Below are positions 1,159 through 21,595 of a stretch of 64,000 nucleotides of DNA, in pieces (within the stretch, counting starts at the first letter, position 1; each line of letters starts with the position of its first letter). The translations under genes were made by a program, and so were the position numbers. Source of the DNA: Flavobacteriaceae bacterium. Lineage in GTDB: Bacteria > Bacteroidota > Bacteroidia > Flavobacteriales > Flavobacteriaceae. The stretch covers positions 1-64,000 of the forward strand of contig QXZA01000004.1 in assembly GCA_009886625.1 (NCBI GenBank). Direction: 5' to 3'. The notes below the pieces were generated by a model that did not search any database, had not been told where the DNA came from, and saw only the letters and a program-made list of their open reading frames with translations.

Positions 1159-2166
1159 TTATAATTTAGCCGACTTTACAGTTTTGATAATTCGCGCTGC
1201 AATTTTGTATGGATCACCATTAGAAGAAGGTCTTCTATCTTCTAACCATCCATTCCAACCTTTTTCAACGGTCATAATTGGAATTCGGATAGATGCTCCT
1301 CTATCAGAAACTCCAAAACTAAACTCGTGTATGGATTGTGTTTCATGTTTTCCAGTTAAACGTTGTTCGTTGTGAGCTCCATATACATCAATGTGTTCTT
1401 TAACTACAGGTCTAAAGGCTTCGCAAATTTTGCTATATACCTCTTCAGATCCACAGGTTCTAAGCACTTCATTTGAAAAGTTAGCATGCATTCCAGATCC
1501 ATTCCAGTCTGTATCGCCAAGGGGTTTTGGGTGCCAGTCGATAGCAAGACCATATTTTTCACCTAAACGTTCAAGTAAATAACGTGACACCCACATTTCG
1601 TCTCCTGCTTTTTGAGCACCTTGAGCAAAACATTGGTATTCCCATTGACCTGATGCAACCTCTGCATTGATTCCTTCTACATTAATACCAGCTTCAATAC
1701 ATTGATCTAAATGTTCTTCAATCATTTCTCTACCGAAAGCATTTTTAGCGCCTACTGAACAATAAAATTGCCCTTGAGGTGTTTGGTCTTTTGGAAATCC
1801 GAAAGGAAGATTAGTTTCTGGATCCCATAGAAAATATTCTTGTTCAAAGCCAAACCAAAAATCATCATCATCATCATCGATTGTTGCTCTACCATTAGAG
1901 GCGTGAGGAGTTCCATCAGCATTCAAAACTTCAGTCATTACTAACCATCCGTTTTTACGATCAGGATCTTCGTACAAAGCGACTGGCTTAAGGAGGCAAT
2001 CAGAGGCATTTCCTTCTGCTTGTCTGGTTGAAGAACCGTCGAAAGACCACATGGGACAGTCGTCTAATGTTCCTTTGAAATCACTTACAATTTTAGTTTT
2101 GCTTCGAAGATTAGCAGTTGGCTCATAACCGTCCAACCAAATATATTCTAATTTAGCTTTATTCAT
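1159..2166 (-). CDS. glnII: Glutamine synthetase type II (eukaryote-like)
   Basis: A 335-residue enzyme that joins ammonium to glutamate using ATP. The beta-grasp N-domain holds WSFDGSST (near 40-47); the catalytic domain shows the glutamate/metal motif FGFEQEYF (105-112), NGSGMHANFS (222-231), RLTGKHET (269-276) and RGASIRIP (289-296). Length and motifs fit GSII, not the 470-residue GSI. An exact (ATC)6 run in the DNA gives six consecutive Asp just before the FWFGFEQE motif. It diverges from glnN, with a putative CCCC-N10-GGGG operator in the shared intergenic region. Confidence 0.92.
   Translation of the reverse strand: MNKAKLEYIWLDGYEPTANLRSKTKIVSDFKGTLDDCPMWSFDGSSTRQAEGNASDCLLKPVALYEDPDRKNGWLVMTEVLNADGTPHASNGRATIDDDDDDFWFGFEQEYFLWDPETNLPFGFPKDQTPQGQFYCSVGAKNAFGREMIEEHLDQCIEAGINVEGINAEVASGQWEYQCFAQGAQKAGDEMWVSRYLLERLGEKYGLAIDWHPKPLGDTDWNGSGMHANFSNEVLRTCGSEEVYSKICEAFRPVVKEHIDVYGAHNEQRLTGKHETQSIHEFSFGVSDRGASIRIPIMTVEKGWNGWLEDRRPSSNGDPYKIAARIIKTVKSAKL
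1861..1878. repeat. (ATC)6 trinucleotide run in glnII
   Basis: Six perfect ATC units on the plus strand encode Asp97-Asp102 of GSII on the minus strand. The position is just before the catalytic metal-binding motif. Confidence 0.9.
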
Positions 2167-2257
2167 GATTAATTAATTTTTAGCTAAAATAAAATTTTTC
2201 ATACGCCCTCATTAAAAGAATGTTACAAAGAAATTAACAATATTATATTTTTATTAA

Positions 2258-2275
2258 CCCCCCACTTTTTTGGGG
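2258..2275. promoter_or_regulatory. Putative nitrogen operator (CCCC-N10-GGGG) between glnII and glnN
   Basis: CCCC (2258-2261), ten bases, GGGG (2272-2275), in otherwise AT-rich DNA about 100 bp from each start codon. The inner part is also an inverted repeat CCCCA-N6-TGGGG. It matches the architecture of two sites before the porin-PII-Amt operon. A terminator role is unlikely, since both flanking genes diverge from it. The binding protein is unknown. Confidence 0.45.
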
Positions 2276-2332
2276 ATAAAATTTAATATTCTTCATTTTT
2301 TTTGATTTTCGCCATCAAATATTCAAAATGAC

Positions 2333-2367: not shown

Positions 2368-4551
2368 ATGCAAACCCTACGTAAAAAAAGTCTTTATACG
2401 CTTTCTTCCACTTCTGAAGTGGTTCCGTTATCTTCTTCAAAAGCATTAGATTTTGCTGCACATGTTTTTAATAAGGAAAAGTTAAAGCAATTTTTGAGTG
2501 AAAAGTCATTTAAACAAATGCTCCAATCCATTGAAAAAGGAATTCCTATTAATCTAGTGTTAGCAGATCAAATAGCCGCAGCCATGAAGGCTTGGGCAAT
2601 TTCAAACGGTGCGACGCACTATACACATTGGTTTCAACCTATAACAGGCGCAACAGCAGAAAAGCATGACTCTTTTTTTAACCTTGATGATAGGGGGATG
2701 CAAATTGAGAAATTTGAAGGAGAACAGCTCGTTCAACAACTGCCAGATGCGTCAAGTTTTCCAAGTGGAAGCGTCAGAAATACTTTTGAAGCAAGAGGTT
2801 TTACAACTTGGGACCCAACCTCTCCAGTTTTTATCTATGAAGGTACGCTTTGTATTCCTTCTCTATTTATCTCCTATACAGGAGAGGCGCTTGATTTTAA
2901 GACTCCATTAATTAAATCCCTACAAAAGTTAGATAAGGCTGCTTCAGATGTATGTTATTATTTTGATAAAACGGTTAGTAAAGTAAACGCTACTTTGGGT
3001 TGGGAGCAAGAATTTTTTTTAATTGACAGAAGTTTAGCTGCAAGTCGCCCAGATGTAATGCTTACAGGAAGAACTCTATTGGGGCATTCTCCGTCTAAAA
3101 ATCAAGACTTGAATAACCACTATTTTGGCTCCATTCCTGATCGTGTAAGTCGATATTTAAAAGAATTAGAAAATGAGAGTAATGCTCTAGGAATTCCAGT
3201 CAAAACCTTTCATAATGAAGTTGCGCCAAGCCAATATGAAATTGCGCCTGTTTTTGAGGAAGCTAACTTAGCTGTTGATCACAATGCACTTTTGATGGAT
3301 TTGATGAACAAAATTGCACATAGGCATAACTTTGTAGTCATTTTTCACGAAAAACCATTTGAGAAAATCAATGGATCAGGAAAACATTCAAATTGGTCTC
3401 TAGTAACAAATTCTGGAATTAACTTGTTGAGTCCTGGAAAAACTCCAATGAGTAATTTACAGTTTTTATCATTCTTTGTGAATACTATAGCTGCTGTTTT
3501 AAAACATGAAGCACTTCTTAGGGCCTCGTCTGTTTCTGCAAGTAATGATTTACGAATCGGTTTACAAGAAGCACCATCTGCCATCCTTTCAATTTTTATT
3601 GGAAAACATTTGATGCAAGTTTTAGAAGAATTAGAAAACGTTTCAAAAGGGAAATTATCACCTGAAGAGAAAACAGATATTAAGTTAAATGTGATCGGTA
3701 AAATCCCTGAAATTTTGTTGGACAATACCGATAAAAACAGAACTTCTCCTTTTGCTTTTACGGGGAATAAATTTGAATTTAGAACAGTAGGTTCAAAGGC
3801 AAATTGTGCAAAATCGGTAACTGTTCTTAATGCCATAGTAGCAGAACAGTTGTTGGAGTTTAAACTCGCTGTAGATGAGTTAATAGACGAAAAAAACATG
3901 AAAAAGGACGATGCTATTTTCAATACGCTCAGAGAAACGATTATTTCTATAAAAGATATTTTTTATGCTTCTGAAAATGAAAAAGAAAGCACAGAAACCT
4001 TAGCGAAAAAGAAGGGACTAAGTGACAATAAAACAACTCCAGAAGCATTGCCAGCCTACGTTAAGGAGAGTTCGGTGACCCTATTTGAGCAATTGGGTAT
4101 TTTCACTAAAAATGAATTAGAAACGCGCTACCAGATTGATTTAGATGAATATACCTCAGCTTTACAAATTGAATCTAGAACTCTGGGTGATTTAGCTCAA
4201 AATCACATCATACCCATTGCGATTAAATATCAGAATGTTTTAATCAAGAATGTAAAAGGATTGAAAGAAATTTATGGTGCAGCTCACAAGGAACATGCCC
4301 GTGAGCAAACTCTTATTTTAGAACGAATTTCAAATCATATAGCCGAGATAAATAGTGGGGTGAACGAGATGATAAAATCAAGAAAAAAAGCCAATGTGCT
4401 AGTAGATTCACATAAAAAAGCATTGGAGTATTGCAACACCATTTTACCCTATTTGGAGCACATTCGTTATCATTGTGATAAGTTAGAGTTGACCGTAGAT
4501 GATGAAATTTGGCCATTGGCGAAATATCGTGAATTGTTGTTTATTCGTTAA
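2368..4551 (+). CDS. glnN: Glutamine synthetase type III
   Basis: A 727-residue enzyme of the GSIII family, which forms double-ring dodecamers and is common in Bacteroidota. Diagnostic stretches are THWFQPITGATAEKHDSF near 90-108, the GSIII signature SSFPSGSVRNTFEARG, the glutamate-binding motif WEQEFFLID near 210 and NGSGKHSNWS near 336. The C-terminal part has the long helical region peculiar to GSIII. It makes glutamine from ammonium, and so overlaps in function with the divergent GSII gene. Fed by the Amt system 7 kb away. Confidence 0.95.
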   Translation: MQTLRKKSLYTLSSTSEVVPLSSSKALDFAAHVFNKEKLKQFLSEKSFKQMLQSIEKGIPINLVLADQIAAAMKAWAISNGATHYTHWFQPITGATAEKHDSFFNLDDRGMQIEKFEGEQLVQQLPDASSFPSGSVRNTFEARGFTTWDPTSPVFIYEGTLCIPSLFISYTGEALDFKTPLIKSLQKLDKAASDVCYYFDKTVSKVNATLGWEQEFFLIDRSLAASRPDVMLTGRTLLGHSPSKNQDLNNHYFGSIPDRVSRYLKELENESNALGIPVKTFHNEVAPSQYEIAPVFEEANLAVDHNALLMDLMNKIAHRHNFVVIFHEKPFEKINGSGKHSNWSLVTNSGINLLSPGKTPMSNLQFLSFFVNTIAAVLKHEALLRASSVSASNDLRIGLQEAPSAILSIFIGKHLMQVLEELENVSKGKLSPEEKTDIKLNVIGKIPEILLDNTDKNRTSPFAFTGNKFEFRTVGSKANCAKSVTVLNAIVAEQLLEFKLAVDELIDEKNMKKDDAIFNTLRETIISIKDIFYASENEKESTETLAKKKGLSDNKTTPEALPAYVKESSVTLFEQLGIFTKNELETRYQIDLDEYTSALQIESRTLGDLAQNHIIPIAIKYQNVLIKNVKGLKEIYGAAHKEHAREQTLILERISNHIAEINSGVNEMIKSRKKANVLVDSHKKALEYCNTILPYLEHIRYHCDKLELTVDDEIWPLAKYRELLFIR

Positions 4552-11039: not shown

Positions 11040-12281
11040 TTAGTGCTGGTTTAATCTGAAATCTGCGTATGCATCCATTCCATGTTCTGCTAAATCAAGC
11101 CCTTTGGTTTCTTCTTCAGCATCAACTCTAAGTCCTATAGTGTATTTAATTGCCACTAGGATAATAAAAGATGTAGTTACAGAAAATGCTCCTACAATTC
11201 CTACTCCTGCTAATTGAATCAAAAACTGATCAACACTAGCCATGGCTCCAAATACACCTACTGCAAGTGTTCCCCAAATGCCACAGATTAGGTGAACAGC
11301 AACAGCTCCCACTGGATCATCAAGTTTTAATTTATCAATTAAAGCAACTCCTAATACTATAATTACTCCCGCTACAATTCCAATAAGAATGGCATCGGTC
11401 GGACTCATTTGATCTGCGCCAGCTGTAATACCTACAAGTCCTCCCAATATACCATTCATAAACATTGTTAAGTCAAAGTTTTTGTACATTATGTTTGAGA
11501 AAATTGCAGCTGAAACACCACCCGCAGCTGCCGCTAAACAAGTAGTTACTAAAGTTAAGGAGGTCAATTCTGGGTCTGCAGAGAGAACAGACCCTCCGTT
11601 AAATCCAAACCATCCTAACCATAGGATTAATACACCTGCAGCAGCCAAAGGAATATTGTGTCCCGGTATAGCATTTGGCTTACCATCTTTTCTAAACTTT
11701 CCAATTCTAGCTCCTAATAAATAAATTGCAACCAGTGCAGCCCATCCCCCTACAGAGTGAACTAATGTGGAGCCTGCAAAGTCATAAAAACCCCAAGAAT
11801 CTAGGAATCCACCACCCCATTTCCATGAGCCGATAATAGGATATACTAGTCCTACATATACAATCGAAAATATCATAAATGCGTTTAGTTTGATACGTTC
11901 AGCTACTGCTCCAGATACGATGGTTGCCGCAGTAGCTGCGAACATTCCTTGAAATAAGAAGTCAGTCCACCAAGTGTATCCACCACTTGCATATTCAGCT
12001 GTCATGCCTCCTTCTGGGGCAGCAATACCAAACCCAGCAAATTTTAAAATTCCAAGCGAACCTTCTTCAAAACCTGGATACATTAAGTTGAATCCTCCTA
12101 GGCAGTAGAGAAGTAATCCAACAGAGATCACAAAAAAGTTTTTAAATAAAATATTGATTGTGTTTTTTTGGCGTGTCAATCCTATTTCAAGAAATGAGAA
12201 GCCGAGGTGCATAAAAAAGACTAGGGCTGTACAGATCATCATCCATACGTTATTGGCAGTAAAAAGTGCAATACTTTCCAT
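11040..12281 (-). CDS. amt: Ammonium transporter
   Basis: 413 residues with eleven predicted membrane segments. It carries the Amt/Rh pore: the twin histidines at HSVGGW (near H175) and AVHLICGIWG (near H330), and the family stretch GFNGGSVLS near 227-235. It conducts ammonium across the inner membrane, gated by a PII protein, and its gene directly follows that of the PII protein (24 bases apart). No C-terminal fusion is seen. Together with the barrel gene it forms an ammonium operon that feeds the glutamine synthetases at 1159-4551. Confidence 0.96.
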   Translation of the reverse strand: MESIALFTANNVWMMICTALVFFMHLGFSFLEIGLTRQKNTINILFKNFFVISVGLLLYCLGGFNLMYPGFEEGSLGILKFAGFGIAAPEGGMTAEYASGGYTWWTDFLFQGMFAATAATIVSGAVAERIKLNAFMIFSIVYVGLVYPIIGSWKWGGGFLDSWGFYDFAGSTLVHSVGGWAALVAIYLLGARIGKFRKDGKPNAIPGHNIPLAAAGVLILWLGWFGFNGGSVLSADPELTSLTLVTTCLAAAAGGVSAAIFSNIMYKNFDLTMFMNGILGGLVGITAGADQMSPTDAILIGIVAGVIIVLGVALIDKLKLDDPVGAVAVHLICGIWGTLAVGVFGAMASVDQFLIQLAGVGIVGAFSVTTSFIILVAIKYTIGLRVDAEEETKGLDLAEHGMDAYADFRLNQH

Positions 12282-12305: not shown

Positions 12306-12644
12306 TTAGTTTAAAGATTTACCTCCTTTTTCCCCAGTACGAATTCTATAAGCTTCGTCTACAGAAAGGATGAATATTTTTCCGTCTCCCACGTTATCAG
12401 TTGCTGCAGATTTAAGGATTGCATCAATGGTTGGTTGTACAAAATCATCGTTAACTACAATAGATATATAGCGTCTTTGGATTTCAGAAGTACTGTAACT
12501 AATTCCACGATATACGTGTCCTTCTTTTTCGTTTCCAACACCAGTTACATCCCAATAGCTAAAGAAGTTAACTTCAACATTGTGAAGGGATTCTTTGACT
12601 TGATCAAATTTTGATTTACGGATAATTGCTTCAATTTTTTTCAT
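12306..12644 (-). CDS. Nitrogen regulatory protein PII
   Basis: 112 residues, the standard PII length. It senses ATP/ADP and 2-oxoglutarate as a trimer and blocks Amt through its T-loop. Conserved parts are the N-terminus MKKIEAIIRKSKFDQV, the B-loop region GDGKIF near 87-92 and the C-loop RIRTGE near 101-106. The T-loop tyrosine corresponding to Tyr51 of E. coli is Tyr50 (RGISYSTSE); the residues after it differ from the enterobacterial MVDFLPK, as in other Bacteroidota. GlnK-like by position next to amt. Confidence 0.93.
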   Translation of the reverse strand: MKKIEAIIRKSKFDQVKESLHNVEVNFFSYWDVTGVGNEKEGHVYRGISYSTSEIQRRYISIVVNDDFVQPTIDAILKSAATDNVGDGKIFILSVDEAYRIRTGEKGGKSLN

Positions 12645-12687: not shown

Positions 12688-13710
12688 TTAAAAAGAATAT
12701 ATAGCAGCAACTACAAACGAAGACAAGCTATCTGCAGTTTCTGTTGGTGAGATTGCAAAGATCTCTGAAGAAGCAGAATCAATTCTAAATTCAGGCTTGA
12801 ATGTAAAATTTCCAGAAGTATAGCTTCCAGTTAACGTGAGTGAGAAATTGTCTGCATCCCCCTCGCTAACTAAAGCTCCAAAACCATCAGTTTCTGAGAA
12901 AAATTCTCCTCTTAATCCAATAGCAAAAGAATCAGAGGTAGTAAGTTGTGGGTATAAAGCAACTCCAGCAAAACCTGTATCGCCCGCAATTGAAGCAGTT
13001 GTAGCGTTTATTCCTAAGAAAAAGCTATCGGCAAGATCAAATCCACCTGTGTAGTCCAATTGAAAATAATCTTCTCCTGCCAATAAGTTGATATATTGAC
13101 CATAAAGACCCAATTGAGCACCGAATGCGGTGTAACGATCATAATTTGCTTCTGTTTGATCTGTTTGGTTGAAAACACCCAACATTAATGAGATGTTATC
13201 GGCTAAAGCGAAATCAGCTTTAACTCCTGTGTGAGAAAAGGGACCATATGAAAACATGTATGATGTAGAATAGTTGAAGTTAGCTGCTGGTGAGATTACT
13301 TCATAGCCTAAAAAAGTATTGAAATTTCCTAAAGTTATTCTAACACCCTCTGCTATATTGTAATAAGCATAGAGTTGGTTGACAAGTTCAGATGAATTTC
13401 CTACAGAACCAAATACTGCATCAGAACCTCTTGGCCCAAAAACAACATCTGCAACAAATCCTGATTTTTCTCCTTCATAAGAGACAATAAAATTTGCCAT
13501 GCCTAATGCAAAACCGTTTAGGTTAGCAAAAGAAGTTCCAGGAGCAACAGGATTTTCTGAAAAACTAGTTCTAAAATAAGTGTCTACAGTTCCACTAAAA
13601 TTAAAGCTTGGCGCAGCTTCAGATTCTTCTGTTTCTTGAGCCACTACCCCTGAGATATTAAACAAGGTTACAATAAAGCTTAGAATTAGTAAGTGTTTTA
13701 AATTTTTCAT
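12688..13710 (-). CDS. Outer-membrane beta-barrel porin-like protein
   Basis: About 340 residues from the Met at 13710: signal peptide MKNLKHLLILSFIVTLF..., cleaved before QETEE, an acidic linker, then alternating beta strands ending in the aromatic residue F of VVAAIYSF, a typical outer-membrane C-terminus. An in-frame codon at 13737 is not the start, because the -7 element TATTTTTG overlaps it. The protein resembles the putative porins (OprB/BBP2-like) of flavobacteria. First gene of the operon with PII and amt, so it may help nitrogen compounds cross the outer membrane; that role is inferred from position only. Confidence 0.72.
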   Translation of the reverse strand: MKNLKHLLILSFIVTLFNISGVVAQETEESEAAPSFNFSGTVDTYFRTSFSENPVAPGTSFANLNGFALGMANFIVSYEGEKSGFVADVVFGPRGSDAVFGSVGNSSELVNQLYAYYNIAEGVRITLGNFNTFLGYEVISPAANFNYSTSYMFSYGPFSHTGVKADFALADNISLMLGVFNQTDQTEANYDRYTAFGAQLGLYGQYINLLAGEDYFQLDYTGGFDLADSFFLGINATTASIAGDTGFAGVALYPQLTTSDSFAIGLRGEFFSETDGFGALVSEGDADNFSLTLTGSYTSGNFTFKPEFRIDSASSEIFAISPTETADSLSSFVVAAIYSF

Positions 13711-13734
13711 AAATATTATATTAAAGATTTTTGA

Positions 13735-13742
13735 CAAAAATA
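13735..13742 (-). promoter_or_regulatory. -7 element of the porin-PII-amt operon
   Basis: Minus-strand TATTTTTG matches TAnnTTTG, 25 bp before the start at 13710. No TTG occurs 17-23 bp upstream; a CCCC-N10-GGGG site centred 31 bp upstream of this element takes that place, as at an activator-dependent (class II) promoter. Confidence 0.55.
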
Positions 13743-13760
13743 AATTTTAAAGTACGTTGC

Positions 13761-13778
13761 CCCCTAAATTGATAGGGG
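13761..13778. promoter_or_regulatory. Putative nitrogen operator, proximal site
   Basis: CCCC (13761-13764), ten bases, GGGG (13775-13778); the inner bases extend the palindrome to CCCCTA-N6-TAGGGG. It is adjacent to the -7 element of the porin-PII-amt operon and has the same layout as the site between the glutamine synthetases. Confidence 0.48.
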
Positions 13779-13811
13779 TATAATTATATTTTTATTTATT
13801 TAAAAAATATA

Positions 13812-13829
13812 TCCCACATAAAATAGGGG
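13812..13829. promoter_or_regulatory. Putative nitrogen operator, distal site
   Basis: TCCC-N10-GGGG, seven of eight outer bases matching the proximal site. The two centres are 51 bp apart, close to five helical turns, so proteins bound there would lie on the same DNA face. Confidence 0.38.
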
Positions 13830-13883
13830 TATTGTAAAAATATAATAGAGAAATTGTTAAAATGACAGAAAAAGTGAGTTTAC

Positions 13884-17791: not shown

Positions 17792-18337
17792 ATGAAAATG
17801 GCAAAAAAAGAAGATCAAGCTACTGAAAAGAAAATAACCTCAAAAAAGCAATCCTCCAAGAAAGTAAAGTCCGAGGATAAGTTGAATACACAACTTCAGG
17901 AGGCAAATGATGCCTTAGCGCAAGAAAAAGATAAATATTTACGTCTTTTTGCTGAATTTGAAAACTTTAAAAAGCGGACTGCAAAAGAACGTATTGAACT
18001 TTTTAAAACAGCAAATCAAGAAGTGATCTCAGCAATGATACCAGTTTTGGATGACTTTAACAGAGCTCAGCAACTAATTGAAAAAGGTGAAAATGCGATA
18101 GATGTTGAAGGCTTTAAATTAATTTTCAATAAGTTTCATGATATTTTAAAAAATAATGGACTCACACAAACTGAAGCCAAAGCAGGTGATTCTTTTGATG
18201 CTGAAATTCATGAAGCAATAACTCAAATTCCTGCACCCTCTGAAAAGGAGAAAGGAAAGATTATTGACATTGTAGAAACAGGTTACCAGTTGGGTGACCG
18301 AATTATTCGTTATCCAAAAGTGGTCGTAGGCCAATAG
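17792..18337 (+). CDS. grpE: GrpE, nucleotide exchange factor of DnaK
   Basis: About 181 residues: a Lys-rich disordered N-terminus, a long coiled coil (LNTQLQEANDALAQEKDKYLR, then RLFAEFENFKKRTAKER) and the C-terminal beta domain ending with GYQLGDRIIRYPKVVVGQ, close to the family signature. It releases ADP from DnaK. A second Met two codons in could be the true start. dnaJ follows after two bases; dnaK itself is 21 kb away. Confidence 0.95.
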   Translation: MKMAKKEDQATEKKITSKKQSSKKVKSEDKLNTQLQEANDALAQEKDKYLRLFAEFENFKKRTAKERIELFKTANQEVISAMIPVLDDFNRAQQLIEKGENAIDVEGFKLIFNKFHDILKNNGLTQTEAKAGDSFDAEIHEAITQIPAPSEKEKGKIIDIVETGYQLGDRIIRYPKVVVGQ

Positions 18338-19586: not shown

Positions 19587-20435
19587 ATGAATGCACTTAG
19601 GAATTTTTTAGAACTGCTTAATTACAAGTTTACTATAGGTGATAGTATTTCTTTTACACCAAAGTCAATCTTCATCGTGATTTTGGTTTTTATATTGACC
19701 TTCTTTTTTTTAAAACTATGTAGAAAGATTATTTACAGAACGCTTTCTAGTGACGCAAAAGTTAAGTTCAAAAGTATCTTCTCTTTCTTTAACTATTTTG
19801 TTTACACCATAGTTATACTCCTAACCTTTCAGAATATTGGAATAAATTTAACTGCGGTATTTGCAGCCTCTGCAGCGCTATTGGTAGGTGTTGGTCTTGC
19901 GTTGCAAACCTTTATCCAAGATATCATTTCTGGTGTATTTATAATCGTTGATCAATCCGTACATGTCAATGATATTATAGAGGTAGATGGTCAAATAGGA
20001 AAAGTTGAAAACATTAAACTTCGAACAACTCGAGCAGTGACAAGAGAGAATAAAGTTTTGATCATTCCTAACCATAAATTTTTGACTTCAATTTTGTTCA
20101 ATTGGACTGAAAATGGAGTAATTACAAAAGAGTATGTCGAAGTAGGAGTGGGCTATCAAAGTGATGCTAGACAAGTAACCGAGATTTTACTTAAGATTGC
20201 AAGTGAGCATGATGCTATTTTAGAAAACCCAAAACCTAGCGTAATTTTTAATGATTTTGGTGATAGCGCACTCGTTTTTCAATTATATTTTGCCTTAAAC
20301 AGTAGTTTTATCTCCAATATTGTAAAAAGTGATTTACGATATGAAATTATGGAAGAGTTTAAAAAACAAAACATTGAAATTCCTTTTCCTCAACGCACCC
20401 TTTCTTTTGTTAACCCACCAAAATCCTTACAATGA
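19587..20435 (+). CDS. mscS: Small-conductance mechanosensitive channel (MscS family)
   Basis: 282 residues with three membrane helices (about 28-45, 68-85 and 93-115). The pore-lining third helix is rich in Ala/Gly (AAALLVGVGLALQTFIQDIISG) and leads into the MscS beta domain with DIIEVDGQIGKVENIKLRTT. It opens under membrane tension to release osmolytes. The stop overlaps the start of the sigma54-type regulator gene by four bases (ATGA), an unexpected pairing of unknown meaning. Confidence 0.9.
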   Translation: MNALRNFLELLNYKFTIGDSISFTPKSIFIVILVFILTFFFLKLCRKIIYRTLSSDAKVKFKSIFSFFNYFVYTIVILLTFQNIGINLTAVFAASAALLVGVGLALQTFIQDIISGVFIIVDQSVHVNDIIEVDGQIGKVENIKLRTTRAVTRENKVLIIPNHKFLTSILFNWTENGVITKEYVEVGVGYQSDARQVTEILLKIASEHDAILENPKPSVIFNDFGDSALVFQLYFALNSSFISNIVKSDLRYEIMEEFKKQNIEIPFPQRTLSFVNPPKSLQ

Positions 20436-21595
20436 TTCAGGTTTTATTGATTGAAGATGAAGAACCGATTAGACGGGTCTTATTTCGTATTTTATCGGAA
20501 GAGAATGAAAATTATCAGGTGACCGAGGCTGTAGATGGAAAAGAAGGGCTTAAGATTTTGGGAAGTAAACAATTTGATTTGGTCTTATGCGATATTAAAA
20601 TGCCAAAGATGGACGGAATCGAAGTGCTTAAAAAGTCCAATGAAAAAAATATGCATGTTCCCTTTATCATGTTGACGGGTCATGGAAATGTTAAAACAGC
20701 AGTAGAGGCAATGAAACTTGGGGCTTATGATTTTATATCAAAACCACCGGACCTTAATCGTTTGCTTACATCAATGCGAAATGCGTTAGAAAATAAATCC
20801 CTTCGAACTGAAAACATCAAGCTGAAAAATAAAGTTGCTCAAAAGTATGTCATTATTGGAGAAAGTCCTCAAATTCAATCGGTTAGAGAGATGATTTCTA
20901 AAGTAGCTCCTACCGATGCTCGAGTCTTGATCACTGGAGAAAATGGAACAGGAAAAGAGCTGGTTGCCCATCAGTTACATGAACAGAGCGACCGTAGCAA
21001 AGAAAATTTCATAGAGGTGAATTGTGCTGCAATTCCTTCTGAACTTATTGAAAGTGAGCTTTTTGGTCATGTTAAAGGTGCTTTTACTTCTGCCGTCAAA
21101 GATCGGTCTGGTAAATTTGAAGCCGCTCACAATGGAACTTTATTTTTGGACGAAATCGCTGATATGAGTTTGGCTGCTCAAGCTAAAGTTTTGAGAGCCC
21201 TTCAAGAAAGAAAAATTCAGCGTGTTGGAAATGAAAAAGATATTTTAGTAAATGTTCGTGTCATTGCCGCGACTAATAAAAATCTGAAAGTTGAAATTGA
21301 GGAAGGAAGATTTCGTGAGGATTTATACCACCGTTTAGCTGTGATACTTATACATGTTCCAGCACTTCAAGAGCGTCTTACTGATATTGCTTTGTTGATC
21401 AATCACTTTACAACACTTCTTACCAATGAGCAAGGTTTGGAGCCTAAAGAATTTTCTGAGGAAGCGTTAGCCAAGTTATACGATTACCCTTGGACTGGTA
21501 ATGTAAGAGAACTTCGTAATGTTATTGAGCGCCTTATGATTTTGGGAGAAAATCCTATCAGTTATCAAAATATCAATCAATTTGCACCAAAATAA
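20432..21595 (+). CDS. NtrC-family response regulator lacking a DNA-binding domain
   Basis: 387 residues: receiver domain (1-120) with phospho-acceptor Asp54, Thr82 and Lys104; AAA+ sigma54-interaction domain (about 143-380) with Walker A GENGTGKE (169-176), Walker B GTLFLDEI and the arginine-finger region REDLYHRL. The sigma54 loop reads GAFTSA (216-221) instead of GAFTGA. The protein stops right after the conserved NVRELRNVIERL segment, so no Fis-type helix-turn-helix is present and none is encoded next to it. Such forms act from solution or through partners (H. pylori FlgR is an example). No histidine kinase is adjacent. Confidence 0.9.
   Translation: MIQVLLIEDEEPIRRVLFRILSEENENYQVTEAVDGKEGLKILGSKQFDLVLCDIKMPKMDGIEVLKKSNEKNMHVPFIMLTGHGNVKTAVEAMKLGAYDFISKPPDLNRLLTSMRNALENKSLRTENIKLKNKVAQKYVIIGESPQIQSVREMISKVAPTDARVLITGENGTGKELVAHQLHEQSDRSKENFIEVNCAAIPSELIESELFGHVKGAFTSAVKDRSGKFEAAHNGTLFLDEIADMSLAAQAKVLRALQERKIQRVGNEKDILVNVRVIAATNKNLKVEIEEGRFREDLYHRLAVILIHVPALQERLTDIALLINHFTTLLTNEQGLEPKEFSEEALAKLYDYPWTGNVRELRNVIERLMILGENPISYQNINQFAPK

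Follow-up and report, generated by a model that had tools for sequence, protein, structure and literature searches.

A paired palindromic operator at a fixed distance from the -7 box probably marks a nitrogen-assimilation regulon in Flavobacteriaceae

The window, by which we mean the whole stretch of 64,000 nucleotides analysed here (contig QXZA01000004.1, assembly GCA_009886625.1), comes from a marine lineage of the Flavobacteriaceae and carries an operon in which a porin gene is followed by the genes for a P-II protein (PII) and an ammonium transporter (Table 1). The closest named porin, with 94% identity over the best segment, belongs to a bin labelled MS024-2A (L171), and the ammonium transporter scores 433.3 bits against the marine-subtype model, below that model's cut-off of 514. 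Two palindromic operators stand before the porin gene, the distal one 54 bp below the end of crcB. The window also encodes, at 20432-21595, an NtrC-like response regulator which, judged by eye, apparently stops after its AAA+ domain without a DNA-binding domain; a homologue lies near the porin gene in 35 of 80 loci.

Table 1. Genes and promoter features of the window (PWM, position weight matrix; ranks are among all positions of the window).
Feature	Coordinates	Strand	Remarks
Proximal operator ACCCCTATCAATTTAGGGGG	13760..13779	-	Centre 13769.5, about -39.5 from the predicted start; PWM 22.4 bits, rank 1
Distal operator ACCCCTATTTTATGTGGGAT	13811..13830	-	Centre 13820.5, 51 bp above the proximal operator; PWM 19.1 bits, rank 2
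A-tract ATAAAAAT	13788..13795	-	Midway between proximal and distal operators
-7 box TATTTTTG (TAnnTTTG)	13735..13742	-	Offset 27 from the proximal operator centre, inside the family range
OmpL-like beta-barrel porin (BBP2)	12688..13710	-	First operon gene; start codon read at 13710; scanned as 12688-13713
P-II nitrogen regulatory protein	12306..12644	-	Pfam check
Ammonium transporter	11040..12281	-	TIGR00836 404.6 bits, above cut-off
glnII, glutamine synthetase II	1159..2166	-	364.6 bits, below model cut-off of 500
glnN, glutamine synthetase III	2368..4551	+	GSIII_N 237.7 bits
Third operator, between divergent glnII and glnN	2255..2280		PWM 13.6 bits, rank 3

An initial annotation of this DNA had described an exact CCCC-N10-GGGG site at 13761-13778 and a second one, matching at 7/8 positions, at 13812-13829; both are present there, with centres 51 bp apart. 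The downstream half of the proximal operator occupies the position at which a -33 element would be expected, and a transcription start is predicted near 13730. Another exact CCCC-N10-GGGG, at 2258-2275, forms part of the third operator, for which no partner site exists in the glnII-glnN intergenic region.

Taken by itself, CCCC-N10-GGGG is hardly distinguishable from chance. With at most one mismatch it occurs 10 times in the window against an expectation of 5.4 (sd 2.9), a count reached in 11 of 100 shuffles and so not significant; exact copies number four in the 1.91-Mb genome, compared with three of the reversed pattern. Even ACCCCTA-N6-TAGGGGT, which reads as the operator consensus, is noise in the window's own genome if up to three mismatches are allowed (43 matches, 55 reversed). 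Simple motif counts are inflated because of AAAACCCCTTATTTATAAGGGGTTTT-type palindromes, which stand without nitrogen genes at L063, L066, L080, L137 and L162 and are probably terminators. Enrichment is restricted to the fuller motif. When the window was scored with a palindromic matrix built from 31 sites before the glnN, GSII (glutamine synthetase II) and ald (alanine dehydrogenase) genes of other genomes, the two porin operators ranked first and second of all positions in the 64 kb, and the best score in the reversed window was 12.4 bits.

We then consider scans made without regard to genes, using the pattern WACCCCT-W9-GGGGTWW with at most one mismatch. A match was found in 115 of 239 genomes, compared with 25 of 239 for the reversed control (the control being counted by hand), and a smaller scan of 60 genomes gave 32 sites against seven. 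Among the matches listed, 79 of the 115 distinct hits examined stand before nitrogen-assimilation genes, where "before" means an ATG within 420 bp: glutamine synthetase III in 28 cases, P-II in 24, glutamate synthase in 23, the porin in 20, glutamine synthetase II in 16, the ammonium transporter in eight and alanine dehydrogenase in three, many of the sites being shared by two genes. The gltB gene mostly begins 280-380 bp from the site and diverges from the porin or PII gene. The other 36 hits include terminator-like palindromes and intragenic sites. These hits are the listed loci of the two scans together with 60 further stretches; five rows (G079, G170, G194, G221 and G227) were not examined separately, and the partner sites in G145, G163 and G169 lie in promoters already counted. 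Gene names were taken from the best BLAST match to seven references and checked by Pfam, with nadE and dnaG (considered below) assigned by eye.

One operator is therefore common to unlinked genes: glnN, GSII, gltB, PII-amt, the porin, ald and a second amt. The last encodes a distant type of ammonium transporter (27-28% identity to that of the window), seen with the operator at L119 and L142. The initial annotation had proposed looking for its sites in relatives, and across the Flavobacteriaceae they do recur before porin/PII/amt, glnN, glnII, gltB and ald. Palindromes of a different kind were also seen in the course of this work. Where the porin gene follows amt, a conserved hairpin near ACGGAGCGTTTTGCAGAACGCTCCGT precedes it (L024, L025, L027, L033, L035, L036, L040, L041); it is possibly a terminator or attenuator, and no Rfam family reached its gathering score there in the two loci scored, L027 and L036. 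In another family, contig G431:C105 (L284) holds four near-identical CACCCCTATTATTTTAGGGGTT palindromes at 17968, 27621, 30331 and 34131, the first of them beside a gene for a small Cys-containing peptide resembling a peptide-product precursor.

In a sample of the phylum, the pattern matched in 10 of 30 Flavobacteriaceae genomes and its control in two of 30 (counted by hand). Outside the family there was no excess, with matches in 12 of 266 genomes and control matches in 43 (again by hand), only six of these 266 being from other families of the same order; the excess is therefore seen in Flavobacteriaceae, with the rest of the order hardly sampled. The porin itself is present in 33 of 60 Flavobacteriaceae genomes searched. 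Loss of the sites with retention of the -7 box, which the initial annotation had named as evidence against its reading, is not what most close relatives display. At least one site above 8 bits still precedes the porin in 12 of 15 such relatives (G137 and 14 named loci, leaving out L170 and L177, where the contig starts with the porin). Two sites are retained in nine of them, and three relatives (L173, L175 and L178) have lost the porin operators. G137, the one other genome examined of the window's genus, has both. Column-wise conservation among nine near sequences was 0.54 for the proximal operator, 0.76 for the distal, 0.66 for the -7 box and 0.55 for the flank, values that small shifts in spacing make unreliable and on which we place no weight.

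With a matrix trained without porin or PII sites, 136 of 161 porin/PII/amt operons prove to have a site scoring 10 bits or more in the 330 bp before them; the reversed strings gave two of 161, and the DNA upstream of other ORFs 20 of 814. At least one such site precedes 63 of 68 operons that start with the porin (two or more in 46) and 71 of 89 that start with PII (two or more in 52). Merging only those promoters whose 150-bp ends are identical left 145 as distinct, a set in which promoters from related genomes are not independent; a site is present in 123 of them, 98 also have a partner, and 22 have no site. A few of the promoters scored as lacking a site belong to second copies of PII or to genes called too long (e.g. 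L289, L304 and L461). Two close PII genes occur in each of G178, G061 and G110, and in G178 the operator pair stands before one copy with none before the other.

The spacing of the pair is narrow. Among the 98 partners found in a search of 40-65 bp, distances of 51, 52, 53, 54 and 55 bp occur 4, 33, 42, 17 and 2 times, close to five helical turns. Widening the search to 25-120 bp leaves all partners at glnN (11, of 27 promoters), GSII (four, of 16) and ald (two, of three) at 51-54 bp; at PII promoters it yields 18 partners at 52-54 bp and two at 105-106 bp, the latter being a third site one further step up. Some promoters have three operators in a row, for example the PII promoters at L290 and L408, where neighbouring operators are separated by about 51-54 bp.

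The core promoter is placed just as regularly. In 93 of 121 promoters TAnnTTT starts 24-28 bp downstream of the proximal centre, compared with eight and three in two other five-base ranges, and the longer TAnnTTTG does so in 63 of 121, with none in either of the other ranges. Midway between the paired sites, 75 of the 98 tandem promoters have an AAAA that starts 23-25 bp upstream of the proximal centre, other three-base ranges tested reaching at most 26 of 98. Tandem promoters of the porin/PII/amt group therefore combine two operators on the same helix face with a fixed distance to the -7 box. At glnN the operator is present, some promoters having the pair, yet only the first of these two properties applies, with TAnnTTTG at varied offsets; therefore not all targets share the class II distance, and members of the regulon may differ in how they are controlled. 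According to the available part of PMC9723704, the -7 box of Flavobacterium psychrophilum occupies positions -12 to -5. On that basis the operator centres would lie near -38.5 and -91.5 across the family, and near -39.5 and -90.5 in the window.

The initial annotation had also remarked that the promoter lacks TTG at -33. This is true of the window promoter; as a rule across regulon promoters it is weakly supported, since TTG starts 25 nt above the -7 box in none of 63 regulon promoters and in 13 of 193 other TAnnTTTG matches, and starts 20-24 nt above it in 10 of 63 and 20 of 193, respectively. Those 10 matches are probably in part the operator's own ...TTGGGG.

We regard the operator pair as sites of a dimeric activator of a nitrogen-assimilation regulon of the Flavobacteriaceae, arranged in a class III-like layout, with a probability of roughly 0.78. 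A putative dimeric regulator would bind the proximal site, centred near -38.5, and a second dimer would bind five helical turns upstream, near -91.5. When nitrogen is short, the two dimers would jointly recruit polymerase to a promoter dependent on its -7 box, with the alpha-CTDs sitting between the two activators on AT-rich DNA that includes the A-tract. From this arrangement we infer the binding and the activation, as well as the part played by the A-tract and the nitrogen signal. With its distance to the -7 box fixed, a dimer centred at about -38.5 would suit contact with polymerase in a class II-like manner. The dimeric class II activator proposed in the initial annotation agrees with the conserved sites, the five-turn spacing and the fixed -7 distance of porin/PII/amt promoters, but the layout as a whole would be better described as class II with a distal partner, that is, class III-like, than as class II alone.

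The main rival is a repressor acting through the proximal site: the operator and regulon would be the same, and the protein would cover the promoter under nitrogen excess, as do Bacillus GlnR or Corynebacterium AmtR. Overlap of the proximal site with the -33 region, where a repressor would block polymerase, suits such a protein, and the absence of a single -7 box distance at glnN promoters is also in its favour. Yet a repressor has no need of a -7 box held 24-28 bp away, of a partner five turns up or of a conserved A-tract. We favour an activator because contact with polymerase needs the fixed -7 distance and repression does not, and on balance we think a repressor unlikely. That the palindromes are instead transcription terminators or RNA hairpins, for instance of the upstream crcB, is highly improbable. 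A 6-bp stem could form in RNA, crcB ends a short way above the distal site, and AAAACCCC...GGGGTTTT palindromes elsewhere do resemble terminators; but transcription is predicted to start downstream of both sites, the same pair occurs between divergent gltB and porin genes, where there is nothing to terminate, and the spacing to the -7 box is fixed. The folding z-score is just -1.72, and no Rfam family reaches its gathering score at the operators. A TAnnTTT(G) -7 box at a fixed distance likewise speaks against a sigma-54/NtrC promoter. In F. psychrophilum, the accessible part of PMC9723704 associates sigma-54 promoters mainly with protein quality control, envelope stress, gliding motility and exported proteins.

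Which protein would bind the dimeric activator's sites was approached through several regulator families. The operator resembles both NarL heptamers (TACYYMT) and lux boxes (7-6-7), as would suit an atypical response regulator of the NarL/FixJ type, whose gene lies between nadE and dnaG and which occurs in many site-bearing genomes. We nevertheless reject it as hardly credible: in a search of 120 genomes, no orthologue above 190 bits was found in six site-bearing ones (G025, G047, G119, G099, G057 and G052, of which G052, 90% complete, and G057, with contamination 8, are the weaker cases of absence), and the gene is broken by frameshifts and stops, between open neighbours, in the window's genome and in G178, both of which bear sites. 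This orphan regulator was seen between nadE and dnaG in 13 of 13 loci viewed, the neighbours being judged by eye (L351 in G000, L350 in G178; range L340-L358), and an alignment of nine of its proteins has E at the phospho-acceptor position in eight and S in the ninth. A CRP/FNR protein is disfavoured in a search of 22 genomes: site-bearing genomes have PF13545 proteins from different clusters (G137, G043), and G052 has none, bearing in mind that G052 is 90% complete and that the search would overlook a protein whose sequence had drifted beyond the reach of PF13545.

Palindromes with a W-rich centre and nitrogen targets fit Lrp-type proteins, and both features are found here. One of the widespread Lrp/AsnC-family proteins (e.g. 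G000:C26:62746) is accordingly a candidate for the regulator, if an unlikely one: the family has a member in all 22 genomes searched, and sequence comparison placed group A proteins in eight of 10 site-bearing genomes searched. Group A is found as well, however, in G064, G004 and G020, whose PII or porin promoter is without sites; no operator precedes any of 30 members viewed, a single 15.8-bit match lying inside the gene in G043, and no positive link emerged. More generally, we found no regulator gene that carries a convincing operator or tracks the sites across genomes. Clustering of the neighbourhoods of 80 porin and 20 glnN loci returned only BlaI-, Lrp- and NtrC-like regulators among the recurring clusters inspected, none of them linked to the sites, and the best 70 of 74 unassigned sites included no convincing regulator gene with a site. 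An OmpR-type regulator with one site was seen in G172 (L121) and looks isolated.

Little seems to have been described of the way in which nitrogen assimilation is switched on in Bacteroidota. Nitrogen regulation is strong in Prevotella ruminicola, with no transcription factor named in the available part of PMC5552732. The initial annotation knew of no Bacteroidota nitrogen activator with this operator, and we can add that none of the literature searched on nitrogen regulators of the phylum (subscription papers and preprints aside, and including the accessible portions of PMC9723704, PMC5957442, PMC5552732 and PMC12316311) describes a regulator with it. The presence of the operator and its layout before so many nitrogen genes points to a putative nitrogen regulator. 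The operator, its targets and the fixed geometry offer a DNA bait and clear mutants with which that regulator could be sought in flavobacteria in culture, a group abundant in the sea. A family-wide tandem promoter with an A-tract would also lend itself naturally to testing class III activation beyond the Proteobacteria. We further suggest, tentatively and as a possibility that falls short of probable, that the activator belongs to a family not known for nitrogen control, and that a rigid two-dimer scaffold with a central landing strip for polymerase alpha has been reused at unlinked genes. If true, a single architecture would serve the uptake and assimilation of ammonium in a major group of marine bacteria.

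The system resembles both the nitrogen regulons of other phyla and tandem CRP promoters, and fits no regulator family that was tested to a result. The amt, PII, glutamine synthetase and glutamate synthase genes are regulated by GlnR and TnrA in Bacilli, by GlnR and AmtR in Actinobacteria and by NtrC with sigma-54 in Proteobacteria; the kinds of gene are the same as here, whereas the operators and protein families are others. The NtcA regulon of cyanobacteria likewise joins ammonium uptake, PII and glutamine synthetases under a class II-type palindrome; NtcA is, however, a member of the CRP family with the site GTA-N8-TAC, and here the site is different and no CRP-family protein was found to fit. 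In tandem CRP promoters the two activators act in synergy, with the alpha-CTD placed between them. Crp motifs of E. coli cluster at -41.5, -61.5 and -93.5, as given in the part of PMC5957442 available. Compared with E. coli class III promoters (-41.5 and -93.5), the flavobacterial ones have another operator sequence, centres that would lie near -38.5 and -91.5, a -7/-33 promoter and no CRP/FNR protein found to track the sites. What the two share is the layout: a pair of palindromes about 52 bp apart, of which the nearer covers the -35/-33 region and keeps a constant distance to the core promoter, with AT-rich DNA between them at which the alpha-CTD can bind.
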